DNA of 39,885 nucleotides from NCBI GenBank assembly GCA_021838785.1, contig JAKCCV010000026.1, positions 1 to 39,885 of the forward strand, in the 5' to 3' direction. This document shows, piece by piece, positions 26,520-38,252 of the stretch. Below the pieces are notes generated by a model, which was not told where the DNA came from, ran no database searches, and saw only the letters and a program-made list of their open reading frames with translations. This stretch comes from Acidobacteriota bacterium. Lineage in GTDB: Bacteria > Acidobacteriota > Terriglobia > UBA7540. How positions within the stretch are numbered: the first letter of the stretch is position 1; every line of letters begins with the position of its first letter. The position numbers and the translations under genes are program-made.

Positions 26520-27206
26520 ATGGGAACGATGACCGAGAAAGCTTCAATCCTGCGCAGGCATCGGGTGCCGGAGCTCAATGACACCAAAAAGAAACCTAGC
26601 GCCGGCACAACCGCGGCGAAGACCGAGGAGAACACCAAAAAGGAAAAGCCGCACCGGGCTGACCGGCCGGCCGCCTCTTTGTCGCCCGCGCCAATCATTC
26701 GAACCATCGGGCATTCGACGCGGCAGCTTGAGGCATTCATCGCGGCTCTCCGTGCCCACCACATCCAGTGCGTGGCTGACATTCGGACCATTCCCCGCTC
26801 ACGACGCAATCCGCAATTTAATCAGGATTCGCTGCCGGGCGCTCTGCAGGCTGCGGGCATCGGCTACGTTCATCTGCCGGAGCTGGGTGGTTTGCGCCAC
26901 GCGCGCCGCGATTCTCCCAACACGGCGTGGCGCAATGCGAGCTTTCGAGGCTTCGCCGATTATATGCAGACCCCTGAATTCGACCGAGGTATCGAGCGGC
27001 TGCTTCGCTTGGCTCGAAGGAAAAGAGTCGCCCTCATGTGCGCCGAGGCTGTTCCGTGGCGATGCCATCGGGGTCTGGTGGCCGACGCCCTCCTTGCCCG
27101 AGGCCTCCGTGTCGAGCATATCTTGAACGCCCGCCAATCTCGACCTCACGAAATCACGCCGTGGGCCAAAGTGCAAAACCATCGCGTGACGTATCCCGCA
27201 AAATAA
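26520..27206 (+). CDS. DUF488-family protein
   Basis: The product is 228 residues. The first 58 or so are Lys/Ala/Pro-rich and probably disordered. The DUF488 domain follows: IIRTIGHSTRQLEAFIAALRAHHI, CVADIRTIPRSRRNPQFN, GYVHLPELGGLRHAR, FADYMQTPEF, VALMCAEAVPWRCHRGLVADAL and the C-terminal HILNARQSRPHEITPW. The conserved Cys/Glu in CAEAVPWRCHR suggests an enzymatic or metal site, but the biochemical function of the family is poorly defined. The start is ATG 26520 or ATG 26529 (the latter preceded by GGGAACG). The last 26 codons are duplicated at 30002-30079. Confidence 0.88.
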   Translation: MGTMTEKASILRRHRVPELNDTKKKPSAGTTAAKTEENTKKEKPHRADRPAASLSPAPIIRTIGHSTRQLEAFIAALRAHHIQCVADIRTIPRSRRNPQFNQDSLPGALQAAGIGYVHLPELGGLRHARRDSPNTAWRNASFRGFADYMQTPEFDRGIERLLRLARRKRVALMCAEAVPWRCHRGLVADALLARGLRVEHILNARQSRPHEITPWAKVQNHRVTYPAK

Positions 27207-27340
27207 TCATCCCCACCGTCACCATCGAGGCGAGCACGATGAGGAGCCCTCCGGAAATAGGGAGTTCTTTCTTCGACCGCGTCGGCCTGCTCGCCGTCCA
27301 GCTTCGGTGTCGGATGCGCGTGTGACCCGCGTCATAAAAC
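27129..27340 (+). repeat. duplicated DUF488/lemA junction, copy A part 1
   Basis: This segment, from the last 26 codons of the DUF488 gene into its downstream spacer, is homologous to 30002-30202. The first 82 bp align without gaps (about 9 mismatches by eye); after that the match is patchier and gapped but continues to the shared GTGTGACCC/TGTGACCC and CGTCAT words. Confidence 0.8.
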
Positions 27341-27435
27341 GAGGTGATCCAGAGCACAGCGCAAGGACGAGAGAATGCCTAACCTAGAAAATGAAGGCTT
27401 GGCAGGCTGGCCATAGCGGCGGAGGCGGTCGGCGC

Positions 27436-27476
27436 GCGGCGGGAGCTAGTGAGCGTGGATTCATAGCGGCGGGAGC
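27436..27476 (+). repeat. direct repeats upstream of the cytochrome c gene
   Basis: GCGGCGGGAGC occurs at 27436-27446 and 27466-27476, and CATAGCGGCGG at 27412-27422 and 27462-27472. The last copy supplies the GGGAG ribosome site of the cytochrome gene. Confidence 0.6.
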
Positions 27477-27482
27477 CTGAAA

Positions 27483-27989
27483 ATGACAAGAACAGGAACG
27501 CCATTACTAATGCTGATGTTGGTCTCCGTGGTCGGCCTGGGTCAGCAGGCTCCGCCGAAAACCTCGGCCTCACCAGCGCAAGTAATTCCGGTTCCGCACG
27601 TCTTCAACATCACGCCCAAGCAAAAGGCGCGTAAAAATCCCATTCCGTTTACCGATGTTGCCGTCGAGCAAGGCAAGAAGCTTTACGAGAGTCAATGCGC
27701 CATGTGCCACGGAAGCAATGGGAAAGGGGATGGTGATTTGGCGCGCGCCCTCAAAATTGCGCCACCAGATTTCACCAAGCCGAGCGTCCTGGCCAAACGA
27801 ACGGACGGTGAGCTGTTCACCATCATCGGTGAAGGCACCACGCCGATGCCTGGGCAAAAACATCGCCTGAGCGACTTACAACGGTGGGAACTTGTGGATT
27901 TCCTCCGGTCCCTGCAAGGGAAAACCCCCAGGCCTGCAACACCTGCGGAGCGGCAACTCTTAAAACATGAGGTTGTCGTTCACCCTTGA
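27483..27989 (+). CDS. exported monohaem cytochrome c
   Basis: The product is 168 residues. A signal peptide (TPLLMLMLVSVVGLGQQ, about 6-22) precedes a Pro-rich linker and a class I cytochrome c domain. The haem site is CAMCH (residues 72-76), in the usual context GKKLYESQCAMCHGSNGKGDGDLA. The probable distal ligand is Met122 in EGTTPMPGQKHRLSD, and the closing helix is RWELVDFLRSL. I infer a periplasmic electron carrier or a detached subunit-type cytochrome; no oxidase or dehydrogenase is adjacent. ATG 27483 follows GGCGGGAGCCTGAAA. The last six codons and stop (from 27969) lie within the duplicated segment, so the 3' end was set by the rearrangement described in the findings. Confidence 0.92.
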   Translation: MTRTGTPLLMLMLVSVVGLGQQAPPKTSASPAQVIPVPHVFNITPKQKARKNPIPFTDVAVEQGKKLYESQCAMCHGSNGKGDGDLARALKIAPPDFTKPSVLAKRTDGELFTIIGEGTTPMPGQKHRLSDLQRWELVDFLRSLQGKTPRPATPAERQLLKHEVVVHP

Positions 27990-28136
27990 CCGCCTTTGCG
28001 ATCGAGCCCTTCTTGGGGCCGAGCCTGGCCGCTACCCAGAGCGCGGTGCGACCGGAAAACCCAGATTCAGTTTCTGACAGGCTTTTCATCGCCGGGAAGA
28101 ATGGGCCGCGGACGAAGGTGCCGCCAGGCAGCGACC
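27969..28136. repeat. duplicated DUF488/lemA junction, copy A part 2
   Basis: This 168-bp segment aligns without gaps to 30203-30370. I count about 14 mismatches, only two of which fall in the last 123 bp (28014-28136). It starts inside the 3' end of the cytochrome c gene and ends in the lemA 3' remnant. Confidence 0.9.
28067..28136 (-). pseudogene. lemA 3'-end remnant
   Basis: Read on the minus strand, this stretch encodes VAAWRHLRPRPILPGDEKPVRN and a stop, matching the C-terminus of the LemA-like protein at 30301-30849 except for one residue (Gly for Ser). Homology stops sharply at 28136; no upstream lemA sequence is present. Confidence 0.8.
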
Positions 28137-28172
28137 TCGGCCCAAGCCAACGGCCCGGGTTTCCTTCTACGG

Positions 28173-29384
28173 CTACCGCGCGACGTAGCGCACGACTGCA
28201 AGACGGTTGTCCTTGCTCGTTCCGAGGAACAGGAAGTCGCCGGGCGAATCGGCGCAGGCGGGGACGACGAGACCGGCCTTTGACTCCGGCATGCGGTAGA
28301 GGGCGGTCAGCCGGCCGGTCTCGGGGTTAAGCACTGTGATCATGCCGCGTTGGTGGACGTTTTCTCCGGGAGCTCCGGTCGCAATGTGGGCCCAGTAGAT
28401 GAAGAGATATCCCAGTCCGGCCGTTGCCAGTTGCAGGGGGCTCAGGCCGGGGGCAGGGGGCTTGAGTCGAAACGTTCGGACAACGTATCCTGCGGGGGAT
28501 ACTCCGTAGAGCGTGGGCGCCTGCCTCCCACGGATCAGGTACACGTTCCCGTCTGGGGAGCTGACGCTATAGGTGGAGCCTGCAAGGGTGACCGCCTCCG
28601 CCTCCTGGCTCTGCTCTCCGGCGCTGCCCGGGGCCTTTTTCGCGGCCTTGGTCACGGTGCCCGCAGCGCCGGGCGGCCCATCGGTATGCGGGAAGGCTTC
28701 GCCGAGCTTGAGCGGCGCCACGAAAGTACCCTGCCGGTCGAAGATGCCGGAGAAGCCCTTGCGGTTGCGCCCGATGGTAAGCCCTGAAAGGAGGAAGCTC
28801 CCATCTCCGAAGACGGCCATGCGCCACGGCTGAATTCGCGTTCCCGCCATGTCGCCGATCTTCACGTAAGAGTCCATGGTCCCGTCGTGGTTGTATTTTA
28901 CGATGAGGAATTCGCCCTTGGGCTTTGCGTCCGACTCCGAATGAGCAGCGTCAACGAGGGCGTAAACGTCACCGTCCCCGGTAACGTCGAAGCTGTACCG
29001 GATGAGGTTGCTGTAATCGGAAATGGTAGGCAACGGATACTGCACCACCTTCTTCGACCGCACCAAGATCTCCGAGAGAGGGGCGCGCCCTATGGAGGAA
29101 TATCCGGGCCTGCCGGGTACTACCGGCAGGTAGCCGGTGTAGTTCGCGTAAATATTGCCGTTCAAGTCGCACTTGATTCCTGCCAGGACGGCCACCGGCG
29201 GCGGGGCAGAAAAGTGAACGGTTTCCGCCTCGTAGAGGTCGAGTACGCCCTGGGCGGTCTCATGCGTCCGGCCTCCCTTGGTTTTGGGCTTGCGCTGGGA
29301 GAAAACGGGTAGGGAAGCCAGGACGACGCACGACCCCAGCGCGGCCAGGACGCCCAGCCTCGCTTTCCGTGCAGGACACAACAT
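28173..29384 (-). CDS. secreted protein of unknown function, probable beta-propeller
   Basis: The product is 403 residues. A signal peptide is likely (LGVLAALGSCVVLASLPVFSQ, about 10-30). The rest is beta-rich with blade-like repeats of the type 'D-x-x-G-x-x-Y', for example IKCDLNGNIYANYTGYLP, FDVTGDGDVYALVDA, VKYNHDGTMDSYVKI, FGDGSFLLSGL, SSPDGNVYLIRG and VLNPETGRLTALYRMP. This fits a six- or seven-bladed propeller (NHL/YncE-like). A disordered Ala/Lys/Glu insert lies near 240-265. ATG 29384 has AAGGAGGTTCGAAACC upstream and is preferred over the frame opening at 29441. It lies 88 bp downstream of the Cys-rich gene, probably one transcript, within the block bounded by the duplicated junction. 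Confidence 0.8.
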   Translation of the reverse strand: MLCPARKARLGVLAALGSCVVLASLPVFSQRKPKTKGGRTHETAQGVLDLYEAETVHFSAPPPVAVLAGIKCDLNGNIYANYTGYLPVVPGRPGYSSIGRAPLSEILVRSKKVVQYPLPTISDYSNLIRYSFDVTGDGDVYALVDAAHSESDAKPKGEFLIVKYNHDGTMDSYVKIGDMAGTRIQPWRMAVFGDGSFLLSGLTIGRNRKGFSGIFDRQGTFVAPLKLGEAFPHTDGPPGAAGTVTKAAKKAPGSAGEQSQEAEAVTLAGSTYSVSSPDGNVYLIRGRQAPTLYGVSPAGYVVRTFRLKPPAPGLSPLQLATAGLGYLFIYWAHIATGAPGENVHQRGMITVLNPETGRLTALYRMPESKAGLVVPACADSPGDFLFLGTSKDNRLAVVRYVAR

Positions 29385-29472
29385 GGTTTCGAACCTCCTT
29401 CCGTGAGGGCGCCGGAAGCTTCCGCGCGCACGTCGCCCCACCGCGCCCGAAAGCCAAGCTGCAGCGGTTGGG

Positions 29473-29886
29473 TCAGGCTGCGACAGGAAGCATAACCATC
29501 ATGTAAACCCCCGAGCAGTTTTTCACCCACACGGCCTCTATGAACTCGCCGGGTCGCGATGCCGCGAGGGCGGGAGTCTCGCCGATGTTGCATTCGCCCA
29601 ACGGCCCGCCTGCGATTGTTGTTTGGGCCGTGGAACAGCAATAAACAGTCGTGGTGTTGTAACACTGGCCGGTCCCGCTCGTGTCGCCGCCACTGCAGAT
29701 ATTGATGGTTATGCTGCCCGTGCAGCCTGTAGAACCGCATCCCACTGTCTGGGATTCGATTTGGCCTGGGCAGCAGATCTGCCCGGCGGAACACTGCCCC
29801 CTTACGCGAGGCGTGCCGAATATCAACGCCGCGATTCCAGCCACGACCGCTGAGGCCGCCCCCATCTTCCGCCTCTTGCCTATCAT
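29473..29886 (-). CDS. small cysteine-rich exported protein
   Basis: The product is 137 residues, family not recognised. A signal peptide (ASAVVAGIAALIFGTPRVRG, about 11-30) leads into a mature part of roughly 107 residues with 11 cysteines, in patterns QCSAGQICCPG, VGCGSTGCTGS, NICSGG, GQCYN, VYCCST, GECNIG and KNCSG. Rich Thr/Ser/Gly content and paired Cys suggest a disulfide-stabilised extracellular protein. The odd cysteine count leaves one residue free for an intermolecular bond or modification. ATG 29886 has AGGAGGTGAGTT upstream. It is followed by the propeller-like gene, so I infer a two-gene secreted unit. Confidence 0.8.
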   Translation of the reverse strand: MIGKRRKMGAASAVVAGIAALIFGTPRVRGQCSAGQICCPGQIESQTVGCGSTGCTGSITINICSGGDTSGTGQCYNTTTVYCCSTAQTTIAGGPLGECNIGETPALAASRPGEFIEAVWVKNCSGVYMMVMLPVAA

Positions 29887-29963
29887 AACTCACCTCCTCG
29901 CGGGGCCTGCCCACTTCGTTTTGGGTTGTTTACGGCCCCGTAGATAACCAGAGGCTAACTCTT

Positions 29964-29985
29964 GGGGGGGGATGTCAAGGGGGGG
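29964..29985 (-). promoter_or_regulatory. homopolymer tracts around a TTGACA upstream of the Cys-rich gene
   Basis: On the minus strand a run of 7 C (29985-29979) precedes TTGACA (29978-29973), which is followed by T and a run of 8 C (29971-29964). If TTGACA is the -35 of the secreted two-gene unit, the C8 run lies in the spacer. No convincing -10 is seen at 17 bp. Confidence 0.4.
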
Positions 29986-30001
29986 TGAAAAATTTTTCGT
30001 G

Positions 30002-30079
30002 GCCCGCCAAGCTCGCCCTCACGAAATCACGCCGTGGGCCAAAGTGCAGGACCTCCGTGTGACCCATCCCGCAAAATAA
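30002..30079 (+). pseudogene. DUF488 3'-end remnant
   Basis: The 78 bp encode ARQARPHEITPWAKVQ then DLRVTHPAK and a stop, matching the last 25 residues of the intact DUF488 protein (26520-27206) with four substitutions and no frame break. Homology starts abruptly at 30002; nothing of the gene lies upstream. Confidence 0.8.
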
Positions 30080-30370
30080 TCATGGCCATCGAGGCAAGCA
30101 CGTCATGGCCTGCGCAAAAGAGGCGGTCTTTTTTCGGCGCCGCCGCGCCTGCCAGTGACCGAGCTGCGGCATCGGATGTGCATGTGACCCACGTCATCAA
30201 CCGAGCTTGTGGCTCGCCCCTGACTGCCCTTGCGATGGAGTTTTTCCTGGGGCCGAGCCTGGCCGCTACCCAGAGCGTGGTGCGACCGGAAAACCCAGAT
30301 TCAGTTTCTGACAGGCTTTTCATCGCTGGGAAGAATGGGCCGCGGACGAAGGTGCCGCCAGGCAGCGACC
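30002..30370. repeat. duplicated DUF488/lemA junction, copy B (uninterrupted)
   Basis: Copy B holds the DUF488 3' remnant, the spacer and the 3' end of the functional lemA gene as one continuous 369-bp segment. Copy A has the same two parts at 27129-27340 and 27969-28136, separated by the cytochrome c gene. The region 29887-30300 contains no other gene. Confidence 0.85.
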
Positions 30371-30849
30371 ATCTTGGTGGGTCCATGGGTGATGCGAGAA
30401 TTATAAGCCGTCGCTTGCTGGTTGTAGGCGGCTCGCTGAGCGGCCAACCGCTCGTTGAGTGAGCTGAGCCGGCTGCGAAGCTGTTGGAAGCTCGCGTCAT
30501 TTTTGAGCTCGGGATTTTTGCCGGCGGCCGTGAAAAGTACTTGCAGGGTCTCGGCGAGGCGAGCCCCGAGTTGTGCCCGATCCGGTAATGTTGAGGCTCT
30601 CGCCCAGGCGCGACGCGCTTCCGTGAGCGCTTGCAGGGTCTGCGACTCGTCGCGCAAGTAAGGCCGGCAGGTTTCCACCAGTTTGGGCAGTTCGTCATGC
30701 CGCTCTTTAAGAGCCGACTCCAGGTTGGCCTTTGTTTTATCCAAGCTGTGTGCCAGACGCGAAAGCGAGCGGCTTACTCGCGTGAAATAAATGACCACGG
30801 CGATGGCCACCACCACGAATGCCGCGACAGTTACAATAGCCGTCGTCAT
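30301..30849 (-). CDS. LemA-family protein
   Basis: The product is 182 residues, typical for LemA. An N-terminal membrane segment (IVTVAAFVVVAIAVVIYFT, about 5-23) is followed by a long helical bundle with family features: HDELPKLVETCRPYLRDESQTLQALTEAR, LAETLQVLFTAAGKNPELKNDASFQQLRSRLSSLNERLAAQRAAYNQQATAYNSRI, described by region, and the C-terminal MVAAWRHLRPRPILPSDEKP. LemA proteins are membrane-anchored with a large outward helical domain; their function is not settled. ATG 30849 follows GAGGATGAGCA. It lies 132 bp downstream of the TolC-family gene, possibly cotranscribed. Its last 70 bp are duplicated at 28067-28136. Confidence 0.85.
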   Translation of the reverse strand: MTTAIVTVAAFVVVAIAVVIYFTRVSRSLSRLAHSLDKTKANLESALKERHDELPKLVETCRPYLRDESQTLQALTEARRAWARASTLPDRAQLGARLAETLQVLFTAAGKNPELKNDASFQQLRSRLSSLNERLAAQRAAYNQQATAYNSRITHGPTKMVAAWRHLRPRPILPSDEKPVRN

Positions 30850-30981
30850 TGCTCATCCTCGCGGTCACCTAAGCTCTGCGAACTCTTCATTCCAAGTGCC
30901 CGCTTCGCGCTTTGTCGAGAGCGGGGAAGCTTGGCAAACCTTACGGCCATGCTCCTCGGTTGATTTGCAGCTTTCTCAAGG

Positions 30982-32886
30982 CTAGGGTTGGGACGGAGCA
31001 CCAGGAATGTTCGGCACGCCGCTAATCTGGCCGGACTTGGCTTGTGAAAGCTGGATGTGGAACCATCGCAGTGTAGTGCCGGTGGCCTGCGCAAGCTGGA
31101 CCACCGCCTTGGCGTAATTATCGTAGGCCTGGGCTTGATTTCCCAAGGCCGTGTCGTATTGCTCCTCGGTCAGAATCACGTTCAAGGTGGTGGATTCTCC
31201 CAGCTCTAATTTTTTCCGTTCATCTTGGAGCGTGAGGAGAGCTAACCGGACGGCCTTCTGCGCGGCATTGATTTGGGCACGAGCCTGCGTGACGGCAATC
31301 TCAGCGGTGCGCACGTCCTGAGCGACTTGGTCTCGGGTTTCCTGTAATTGTTCATGAAGCTGACGCTGCTGGAGCAACGCGGTGGCCATATCGGCCTGGG
31401 CGGTTCGGTTGCGGATCGGGATTTGCAGCGTGACGCCAAACGAGTAATCGGGATATGCCGCGTGCAGGAGCTGTGTCAATGATGGCCCTAGCCCTCCTGG
31501 TGCGATTCCAATCACTTTGCCCGTCGAGCTTCGCAGCAGGCGATTACCGGAAAGCGCGGTGGGAGCGTAGGTTCCGAAGACATTGAATGCGGGCAGTAGG
31601 GCATTGCGCGTTTGTTGAATGGTGATGTCCTGGTTGCGGATGTTGATTTCGGCTTGCTCGATTTCGGGTCGGTACTTTTGGGCCTCCTGAAGGCCGACCT
31701 GCAAGGGCGGAATGTTAACGATTTGAGGGCTAGGAAAGGGCGTCATGGCCTCAATGTGGGCGGCGGCGAGGTCAGGATCCACGCGCTTCGAGAGCTCCGT
31801 CTTCAACACTTCCTGTTGCTGAAGGTAGTTAGTTTCAGCGACGATCAGGTTTTGCTGGTCGGTCGCAACCTGGGATTCGGCTTGAACGACCTCCAGAGGC
31901 GCCATCGTGCCAATCTGCACCTGCTTCTGATCGTCGGCAAGAAGATGTTCATCATAAGCGAGGGCTTGCTGGGCCACGCGCACGTTCTGCCGATAGTAGA
32001 GGAGCTGATAATAATCGTCGGCCACCTGAGCCACAACGCTCATCACCGTCTGTCGAAAAGTGCTGTTAGCTTCATGCACGTCGTTTTGAGCGATGCGGAT
32101 GTATTTGGCGTTTGCACGGTAGCCAAAGCCGCTCAACAGAGGCTGATTGAAGCCGATTTCAAACCGTGCAGGGACCTCAGGATTGAACAGGGTCCCGAGT
32201 GAGGTAGTGGATTGCCGGAAGCCGCTGACCGCTGCCACAATGCTCGTGCCGGTCAAAAAACCTTTTCCGAAGAAGGTGGTGAGGCTCGAAGTCTGGGTGG
32301 ATACCACCGGAACGCCCGTGACGGCGATCGTATTTAGAGGCGAACTGTTATGATCCCATCCGAAGCTGACGCCGGCAAAGGGATCGCAGCAAGGGATTGA
32401 ACCGATGTTGGTCGCCCCGCCGCCGCCCGCGATGCCGCCTGCATTGCCCGTTCCAGCGGCGGCTGTGGCGGTGCTGGTCACACCGAAAGCGGTGACGCTT
32501 CCAAAGAGGGCAGGGTTGATGCCGCGCGTCGTTCCGCCTGCCTTGGTGCGGAGAATGTCCGTCTGAGCGTAGGCCAATGAATAGCGCGCCACGTCAATCT
32601 GCAGATTGTTTTGCAGGGCCAGCGCAATCGCATCGCTGAGGGAGAGCTTGAGTCGGCCGTTGATGATGAGCGAATGGAGAAGCTCCGAGTTGCTCATTTT
32701 GGGTTCGGGGATGAAAGGCGCCGTGTAGGGGCTAAAGATGTGCGGAAACCAGTCCGTATGGGCAAAGTTCGCCGCGGTGGCAGGATTGAAGGCGGTCGAA
32801 CCCACTTGGGCTCGCGCTGGTGGGGCGCTCAGTAACAGGCTGAGCGCAGCAATCCCCATGACGGGCCAAATAGTCTTAAGTTTCAT
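30982..32886 (-). CDS. TolC-family outer membrane efflux protein
   Basis: The product is 634 residues. A signal peptide (IWPVMGIAALSLLLSAPPARAQ, about 6-27) precedes a two-repeat OEP structure. The repeats open with LSLSDAIALALQNNLQIDVARYSLAYAQ (about 85-112) and, in the second half, QEAQKYRPEIEQAEINIRNQD. Long amphipathic helices follow, e.g. LLQQRQLHEQLQETRDQVAQDVRTAEIAVTQARAQ, ending in LGNQAQAYDNYAKAVVQLAQATG. A Gly-rich insertion (about 145-200) is unusual. TolC-type proteins form the outer-membrane channel of RND, ABC or MFS efflux pumps. No pump or adaptor gene is adjacent. ATG 32886 follows GGAAGGAAAATCTAACG. A TetR-type operator and promoter lie about 300 bp upstream, so drug- or metabolite-induced expression is likely. 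Confidence 0.9.
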   Translation of the reverse strand: MKLKTIWPVMGIAALSLLLSAPPARAQVGSTAFNPATAANFAHTDWFPHIFSPYTAPFIPEPKMSNSELLHSLIINGRLKLSLSDAIALALQNNLQIDVARYSLAYAQTDILRTKAGGTTRGINPALFGSVTAFGVTSTATAAAGTGNAGGIAGGGGATNIGSIPCCDPFAGVSFGWDHNSSPLNTIAVTGVPVVSTQTSSLTTFFGKGFLTGTSIVAAVSGFRQSTTSLGTLFNPEVPARFEIGFNQPLLSGFGYRANAKYIRIAQNDVHEANSTFRQTVMSVVAQVADDYYQLLYYRQNVRVAQQALAYDEHLLADDQKQVQIGTMAPLEVVQAESQVATDQQNLIVAETNYLQQQEVLKTELSKRVDPDLAAAHIEAMTPFPSPQIVNIPPLQVGLQEAQKYRPEIEQAEINIRNQDITIQQTRNALLPAFNVFGTYAPTALSGNRLLRSSTGKVIGIAPGGLGPSLTQLLHAAYPDYSFGVTLQIPIRNRTAQADMATALLQQRQLHEQLQETRDQVAQDVRTAEIAVTQARAQINAAQKAVRLALLTLQDERKKLELGESTTLNVILTEEQYDTALGNQAQAYDNYAKAVVQLAQATGTTLRWFHIQLSQAKSGQISGVPNIPGAPSQP

Positions 32887-37460: not shown

Positions 37461-37536
37461 GCTGGCGTAGCTCAGCTGGTAGAGCATCTGATTTGTAATC
37501 AGAGGGTCGGGGGTTCGAATCCCTTCGCCAGCTCCA
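37461..37536 (+). tRNA. tRNA-Thr (anticodon UGU)
   Basis: A full cloverleaf is visible. The acceptor strands GCTGGCG/CGCCAGC pair, the D-arm has AGCTCAGCTGGTAGAGC, the anticodon arm CTGATTTGTAATCAG shows anticodon TGT, and the T-arm contains GGTTCGAATCC. CCA is encoded at 37534-37536. It is the first gene of the Thr-Tyr-Gly-Thr cluster. Confidence 0.97.
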
Positions 37537-37772
37537 GCTTGAGCTGCAAGGAGGGCGCTAATTTGCGGGAAGCGGGCGGCCAAAACGCAAAGGGTCGTCG
37601 GCACGGCGCTCAACTCAGCTAAGGGGACGAATCCAATTTTATTGAAGCAGATTGGAGCGGGAAGGGAACCCGAGCTCCACAAGGGGTTCGAGCTTATCGG
37701 CCTTTGCCCAGGTTCGATGGTTTGGAATGAGGCAAGGCGAAAACCTCGGAGGAATGTGCGGGAAGGAGATTG

Positions 37773-37861
37773 GGACAGGTGGCCGAGCGGTCAATGGCAG
37801 CAGGCTGTAAACCTGCCGCTCCTTGCGAGCTACGGGGGTTCGAATCCTCCCCTGTCCACCA
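37773..37861 (+). tRNA. tRNA-Tyr (anticodon GUA)
   Basis: The acceptor stem is GGACAGG/CCTGTCC. The anticodon arm GCAGGCTGTAAACCTGC shows GTA, and a long class II variable arm follows, as expected for bacterial tRNA-Tyr. The T-arm has GGTTCGAATCC. CCA is encoded at 37859-37861. Confidence 0.96.
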
Positions 37862-37867
37862 CGAGAC

Positions 37868-37985
37868 CAGTGGCAAGTGGTTGGTGGCGAGTGGCAAAAA
37901 TATAATACGGGGGATGGGTCTCGGTCATGGGCGGCACCTTTGCTCCACGCACGGGGCGTGGTCTTTGAGTTACCACTGGCCACTG
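37868..37985. repeat. imperfect inverted repeat in the Tyr-Gly tRNA spacer
   Basis: CAGTGGCAAGTGGT (37868-37881) pairs imperfectly with ACCACTGGCCACTG (37972-37985). The same sequence family occurs in the Gly-Thr spacer. The element fills nearly the whole spacer. Confidence 0.6.
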
Positions 37986-37995
37986 TTCTTGCGGG

Positions 37996-38070
37996 GCGGG
38001 AGTAACTCAGTGGTAGAGTCACAGCCTTCCAAGCTGTTGGTCGCGGGTTCGATCCCCGTCTCCCGCTCCA
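37996..38070 (+). tRNA. tRNA-Gly (anticodon UCC)
   Basis: The acceptor stem is GCGGGAG/CTCCCGC. The anticodon arm CAGCCTTCCAAGCTG shows TCC, and the T-arm has GGTTCGATCCC. CCA is encoded at 38068-38070. Confidence 0.97.
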
Positions 38071-38076
38071 GAAAGA

Positions 38077-38168
38077 CAGTGGTTAGCGGTAAGTGGCCAG
38101 TGACAAGCGTAAAGCGGGGAGACGGGGTGGAGTTACTTTCCACTTGCCACTAACCACTTACCACTGAC
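38077..38168. repeat. inverted repeat in the Gly-Thr tRNA spacer
   Basis: The arm at 38077-38104 (CAGTGGTTAGCGGTAAGTGG onward) is complementary, imperfectly, to the arm at 38140-38168 (CCACTTGCCACTAACCACTT onward). Units of AGTGG separated by two or three bases recur in both arms and in the preceding spacer. Confidence 0.65.
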
Positions 38169-38176
38169 TTCGAGGC

Positions 38177-38252
<76 letters not shown>

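Follow-up and report, generated by a model that had tools for sequence, protein, structure and literature searches.

A duplicated gene junction around a secreted-protein operon in an uncultured acidobacterium, a probable scar of homologous import

Genes and features at the locus

The window analyzed here is the whole of one 39,885-bp contig from an uncultured member of the Acidobacteria (G000), whose 98%-complete genome comprises 38 contigs. It was compared with three other species of the same genus (G001, G002, and G003) and with a wider set of 61 genomes. All four genomes of the genus are drafts, and the sister of G000, G002, which is about 94% identical to it in nucleotide sequence, is 57% complete. 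The region of interest carries, in order, an intact DUF488 gene (26520-27206, plus strand), a cytochrome c gene (cytC; 27483-27989, plus strand), a two-gene block (28137-30001, minus strand), and an intact lemA gene (30301-30849, minus strand). The DUF488, cytochrome c, and LemA calls had been made in an earlier note on this DNA, and Pfam agrees with them (PF04343, E = 8.8e-37; PF00034, E = 2.5e-13; and PF04011, E = 2.3e-29, respectively). Elsewhere in the window, four tRNA genes are clustered at 37461-38249 (plus strand).

The same note had described the junction between the DUF488 gene and lemA as present twice, one copy being split by the cytochrome c gene, and both copies were recovered, copy A at 27129-28136 and copy B at 30002-30370. 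With blastn, the repeat gave scores of 241 and 136 bits; these values are far above the best score obtained in 100 shuffles of the window (33.7 bits), and therefore the repeat is not a chance match. No other clear match to either part of the junction was found elsewhere in the G000 genome. The alignments also agree with the description of the two parts given previously: between 27969-28136 and 30203-30370, the second parts form an ungapped 168-bp alignment of 92% identity, with exactly two mismatches (at 28044 and 28093) within the 123 bp of 28014-28136, and the first parts (27129-27340 and 30002-30202) diverge more, being 73-75% identical with small gaps.

In copy A, the first part (X_A, 27129-27340, plus strand) opens with the last 26 codons of the DUF488 gene and continues into a spacer, and the second part is made up of Y1_A (27969-28013, plus strand), which holds the last six codons and the stop of cytC, and Y2_A (28014-28136, plus strand), which ends 23 codons inside the lemA tail. 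Copy B comprises X_B (30002-30202, plus strand), again the DUF488 end and spacer, and Y_B (30203-30370, plus strand), which holds a stump of cytC, a spacer, and the 3′ end of lemA. The duplicated segment runs from codon -26 of the DUF488 gene to codon -23 of lemA, and both genes stay whole. Read in frame up to a stop codon, copy B gives ARQARPHEITPWAKVQDLRVTHPAK, and the lemA tail of copy A, likewise up to a stop, gives VAAWRHLRPRPILPGDEKPVRN. The duplicated pieces would be by-products, with no evident function for copy B.

Direct repeats in a metagenome assembly may also come from the misjoining of strains, and here the genus bins are drafts, related strains co-occur, and the repeats provide exact runs of 43-48 bp. 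However, copies A and B are 27% apart in X and Y1, and hence copy B is neither a collapsed nor a doubled copy; no run is shared at either join on the block borders (28136/28137 and 30001/30002), and only 38 contigs, this one included, make up the 98%-complete genome. An assembly artefact is accordingly very improbable.

Ancestral gene order and loss of the cytochrome gene from copy B

The sister genome G002 carries DUF488, X, cytC, Y, and lemA in this order on one contig, where Y directly joins lemA, without the block and without copy B. The surplus of G000 over G002 at this site amounts to 2,234 bp, which is the block plus the second, cytC-less copy of the junction. In G001, cytC is directly convergent with lemA, and in G003 the two are convergent with one membrane-protein-like gene between them; in both species, the DUF488 gene is absent from the site, its homologues lie on other contigs, and a gene for a TPR-like protein stands beyond cytC. 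Since cytC is convergent with lemA in G001, G002, and G003, the cytC-lemA neighborhood is the old state, and on this comparison of gene orders the cytochrome gene is ancestral at the junction. The history first proposed for the locus began with a bare convergent DUF488-lemA pair, and this starting point falls away: no such junction without cytC was found in the 61 genomes.

The second part of the junction starts inside cytC: in copy A, positions 27969-27989 form the end of the gene, with six codons (EVVVHP) and the stop, and the homologous end (ELVARP, also followed by a stop) is retained in copy B; therefore, copy B once contained the cytochrome gene. The 628 bp absent from copy B (27341-27968, plus strand) have a GAGGT repeat at either boundary (27341-27345 and 27969-27973), and copy B reads GAGCT at the deletion join. 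The retained 3′ stump and the GAGGT repeats flanking the deletion settle the matter: copy B lost cytC and is a deletion derivative, and there was no capture in copy A. The earlier proposal of "capture (or loss)" of a cytochrome cassette in one copy thus survives as loss from copy B, and its other half, capture in copy A, was rejected since it would need a copy B without any trace of cytC. This highlights that a reading of a single genome can invert the polarity of an event, a loss being taken for a capture.

The block is a separate two-gene unit

As had been reported, the duplicated junction brackets a block of about 1.9 kb with two secreted-protein genes (1,865 bp, 28137-30001, minus strand), arranged as an operon. 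The first is a gene for a small secreted Cys-rich peptide of 137 aa (29473-29886, minus strand), upstream of a gene for a secreted protein of about 400-420 aa (28173-29441, minus strand; likely start at 29375 or upstream) that is a predicted beta-propeller. The structural model of the latter has a mean pLDDT of 71 (moderate confidence), and its Foldseek matches are propellers. No Pfam family was found in the two block proteins, a PDB sequence search with the propeller returned chance matches only, and there was no Rfam match in or near the block.

The block is not at this site in G002 and lies elsewhere in G001 and G003. The G001 homologue is located between PadR and gltB genes, at a site that is empty in both G000 and G002. 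The G003 homologue lies near a KdpD-like gene in a copy split across two contigs; compared with contig C17 of G000, the KdpD gene is conserved and the adjoining gene is different, so there is no clean empty site. The three blocks are homologous from the propeller stop codon to a point some 115 bp ahead of the peptide start. Flanking duplications were sought around the G001 and G003 copies (the latter over two contigs), and none was found. Since the block occupies other sites in G001 and G003, it is a separate unit. Peptide and propeller genes stand side by side at further loci of the genus and family (G017:C60, G004:C12, G003:C135, and G002:C173, where the peptide copy has an in-frame stop), and, judged by these sequences, they are an uncharacterized gene pair conserved across the family. 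A lone remnant of the propeller 3′ end was also seen in G001 (C234:9534-9641), away from all full copies; it covers the last 36 codons at 61% identity, with one stop.

The different sites of the block in congeners, together with the occurrence of a gene 3′ end, as the direct repeat Y2, on either side of the extra DNA, would be in line with a site-specific mobile element whose integrase or transposase duplicated the lemA 3′ end. Yet no transposase or integrase gene is evident among the open reading frames of the 2.2 kb, X_B and Y1_B, which would fall within such an element, consist of ordinary junction DNA of the host, and the block of G001 is not at lemA and is without long flanking repeats, all of which makes such an element extremely improbable. 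A transposon or integrase island was likewise rejected: neither a transposase or integrase nor terminal inverted repeats could be found, the two block ends are not linked by an inverted repeat, and the duplication, at about 1 kb, is not short.

Promoter and leader of the block operon

The promoter and leader of the operon (29887-29985, minus strand) contain TTGACA, a C8 tract (29964-29971), and a GGGGCC/GGCCCC hairpin before the ribosome-binding site. The C8 tract directly follows TTGACAT and lies in the spacer between the -35 and -10 elements, the latter being a poor match. It is the sole run of at least eight C or G in the window, and only three such runs occur in 468 kb, versus 46 predicted by base shuffling. 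At the corresponding position, homologous operons carry tracts of 7-10 C or G, the length varying by locus and species. The peptide-gene leader is 80-83% identical between congeners (window 29888-29962; L022 8038-8115; L019 1177-1253), versus 38-50% for the peptide itself, and the leader hairpin has one compensatory pair in G003.

This promoter layout recurs: TTGAC followed, after up to 12 bases, by eight C or G has about 17 matches across the four genomes, versus 6 for a reversed control. Most of these matches precede genes with signal-peptide-like N-termini, many of them Cys-rich (judged by eye), and the loci concerned are L085, L087, L089, L093-L099, and L102 (G000-G003). In several of them, the promoter is conserved over a greater length (TTGACATYTACCCCCCCCTCA..GGTATC or GTTATC), and the proteins encoded behind it differ. 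From its sequence, the block promoter looks like one of phase-variable type and is a candidate for this class; among the papers searched, there was no dedicated acidobacterial study of phase-variable regulation. We suggest tentatively, and with some doubt, that the block may be one of a set of undescribed phase-variable units in this family of Acidobacteria, which would encode secreted, often Cys-rich proteins behind promoters with TTGACA and a C/G homopolymer, and that the peptide/propeller operon may relocate by recombination, sometimes duplicating the junction where it lands.

A diverged tract starting at a sharp breakpoint

The variable positions of Y change their grouping within a short distance: left of 28014, copy A groups with G002, and from 28033 on, it groups with copy B. 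The best split of these positions gave a Fisher p of 2.7e-7, and 0 of 2000 permutations reached it. The intervening 19 bp (28014-28032) show no difference among copy A, copy B, and G002 and would contain the left edge of an import. X_A is 92% identical to G002, and X_B is 73% identical to each of them; Y1_A is of resident type, being 93% identical to G002 and 73% to copy B. The two Y2 copies, in turn, are 98.4% identical to each other, and both are 81% identical to G002. The sharp breakpoint at 28013/28033 bears out the earlier suggestion that the lemA ends of both copies have a recent shared source.

Raised divergence continues into lemA, where the synonymous divergence (pS) from G002 is 0.281 (dS 0.35). 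Among 17 other genes, pS ranges from 0.069 to 0.182 (mean, 0.124; SD, 0.033), so lemA stands at 2.3 times the background mean (Fisher p = 2.8e-6), and its excess over its three left neighbors alone has p = 0.003. The OEP gene, next past lemA, is again at background level (pS 0.069), which, with the lemA start still diverged, would place the right edge of the import within 30669-30985. The locus therefore shows what homologous import leaves, a tract of raised divergence with its left edge in identical sequence (28014-28032) and, on the right, a raised lemA next to a background-level OEP gene. The exchanged tract probably reaches across the entire lemA, past the duplicated part, although lemA may alternatively just be evolving faster on its own.

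Origin of the arrangement

We consider, with a probability of roughly 0.58, that the locus is a recombination scar left by homologous import from a diverged congener (D), the tract already carrying the block and a junction duplicated by single-crossover insertion-duplication. In D, block-bearing DNA would have been inserted at this site, duplicating about 1 kb and leaving both flanking genes whole; the foreign fragment, with one homologous arm, would have been recircularized and integrated by a single crossover. In a later step, homologous recombination would have exchanged the resident Y2-lemA for the tract Y2-block-X_B-Y_B-lemA, with edges at 28014-28032 on the left and at about 30.7-31.0 kb on the right. 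The donor lineage would be farther from G000 than G002 is, and the two Y2 copies would agree here because both were already present in it. A single import would therefore account for the 27% divergence of X and Y1 between the copies together with the near-identity of Y2. A donor-like genome with the same arrangement was found neither among the 61 relatives, with few congeners to compare, nor in a contig scan, which added no further congener. The age of X_B is supported by only 18 synonymous sites. The duplication could also have begun as a tandem one, with a later insertion precisely at the junction, but this would call for a coincidence. A literature search on microhomology and tandem duplication gave papers on general mechanisms only.

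The sequences could also descend from an old in situ duplication around the block before the split from G002, after which copy B decayed and lost cytC, Y2 was homogenized by gene conversion, and G002 later lost the block and X_B through recombination between Y_A and Y_B. Such recombination would recreate exactly the G002 order, X_B is equally far from X_A and G002 as an old copy would be, and direct repeats readily undergo conversion. However, three extra events are needed (conversion in G000, excision in G002, and the raised divergence of lemA), the A/B and A/G002 breakpoints at 28013/28033 must coincide by chance, and the pS of 0.281 in lemA is left unexplained; we regard this history, the main alternative to import, as unlikely. 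The opposite polarity, in which G002 imported an empty lemA allele and G000 retained an old duplication, is possible, but the A/B and A/G002 breakpoints would again have to coincide.

Import from D in two steps is favored over a direct crossover by the distribution of hybrids. A recent single crossover in the G000 lineage, between the resident X-C-Y (C being cytC) and a circle carrying the block and a foreign X-Y, would yield the resident X_A/Y1_A and the foreign X_B/Y1_B in one step. It predicts, however, a foreign Y2_A with a resident Y2_B and lemA, and thus reciprocal resident/donor hybrids in both flanking copies. Y_A is indeed such a hybrid. Both Y2 copies, however, resemble the donor, being 98.4% identical to each other and 81% to G002, and lemA is diverged, so an added conversion would be needed. 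It is because the reciprocal pattern is absent that the two-step model is preferred, and the direct single crossover, as a rival only, is quite improbable.

Comparison with known systems

In Escherichia coli, insertion-duplication of a (re)circularized fragment has been seen alongside homology-facilitated illegitimate recombination, and single-crossover integration gave flanking duplications of 109-950 bp (PMC3240628). The present locus resembles these products in that one resident segment of 0.1-1 kb is directly repeated on each side of a foreign segment and the ends of the neighboring genes are restored: the block stands between X-C-Y and an X-Y copy from which C is deleted, and G002 has one junction. 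It differs in being natural and old enough for a 628-bp loss in one copy, in having mosaic sequence at both ends, and in that the circle is inferred. The block copy of G001, which has no long flanking duplication, counts against the insertion-duplication model. The second step is comparable to the import of a cassette from a congener via conserved flanks, which also leaves a diverged, sharp-edged tract around a cassette absent from the sister; here, by contrast, the tract includes a duplicated junction that the recipient was without, and the donor is a putative one. The loss of cytC follows the common pattern of spontaneous deletions at short direct repeats, with 628 bp gone between GAGGT copies and a join that reads from one into the other, and has no unusual feature. 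The recombination scar at this locus is real, well resolved, and of a familiar kind; it is a case of ordinary genome evolution and offers a sequence-level example, in an uncultured acidobacterium, of accessory genes entering between two neighbors with neither broken.

The wider value lies in the cassette, an uncharacterized secreted operon whose site differs by species and whose promoter is a candidate for the phase-variable type. In Neisseria, poly-C tracts in the promoter spacer of fetA mediate transcriptional phase variation (PMC5320596). Compared with fetA, the block promoter has a shorter tract (8 here versus 10-14 there) and belongs to another phylum. The likeness concerns this promoter only: in both, a TTGACA-like -35 element is followed by a homopolymeric C tract, and an exported protein is encoded downstream.
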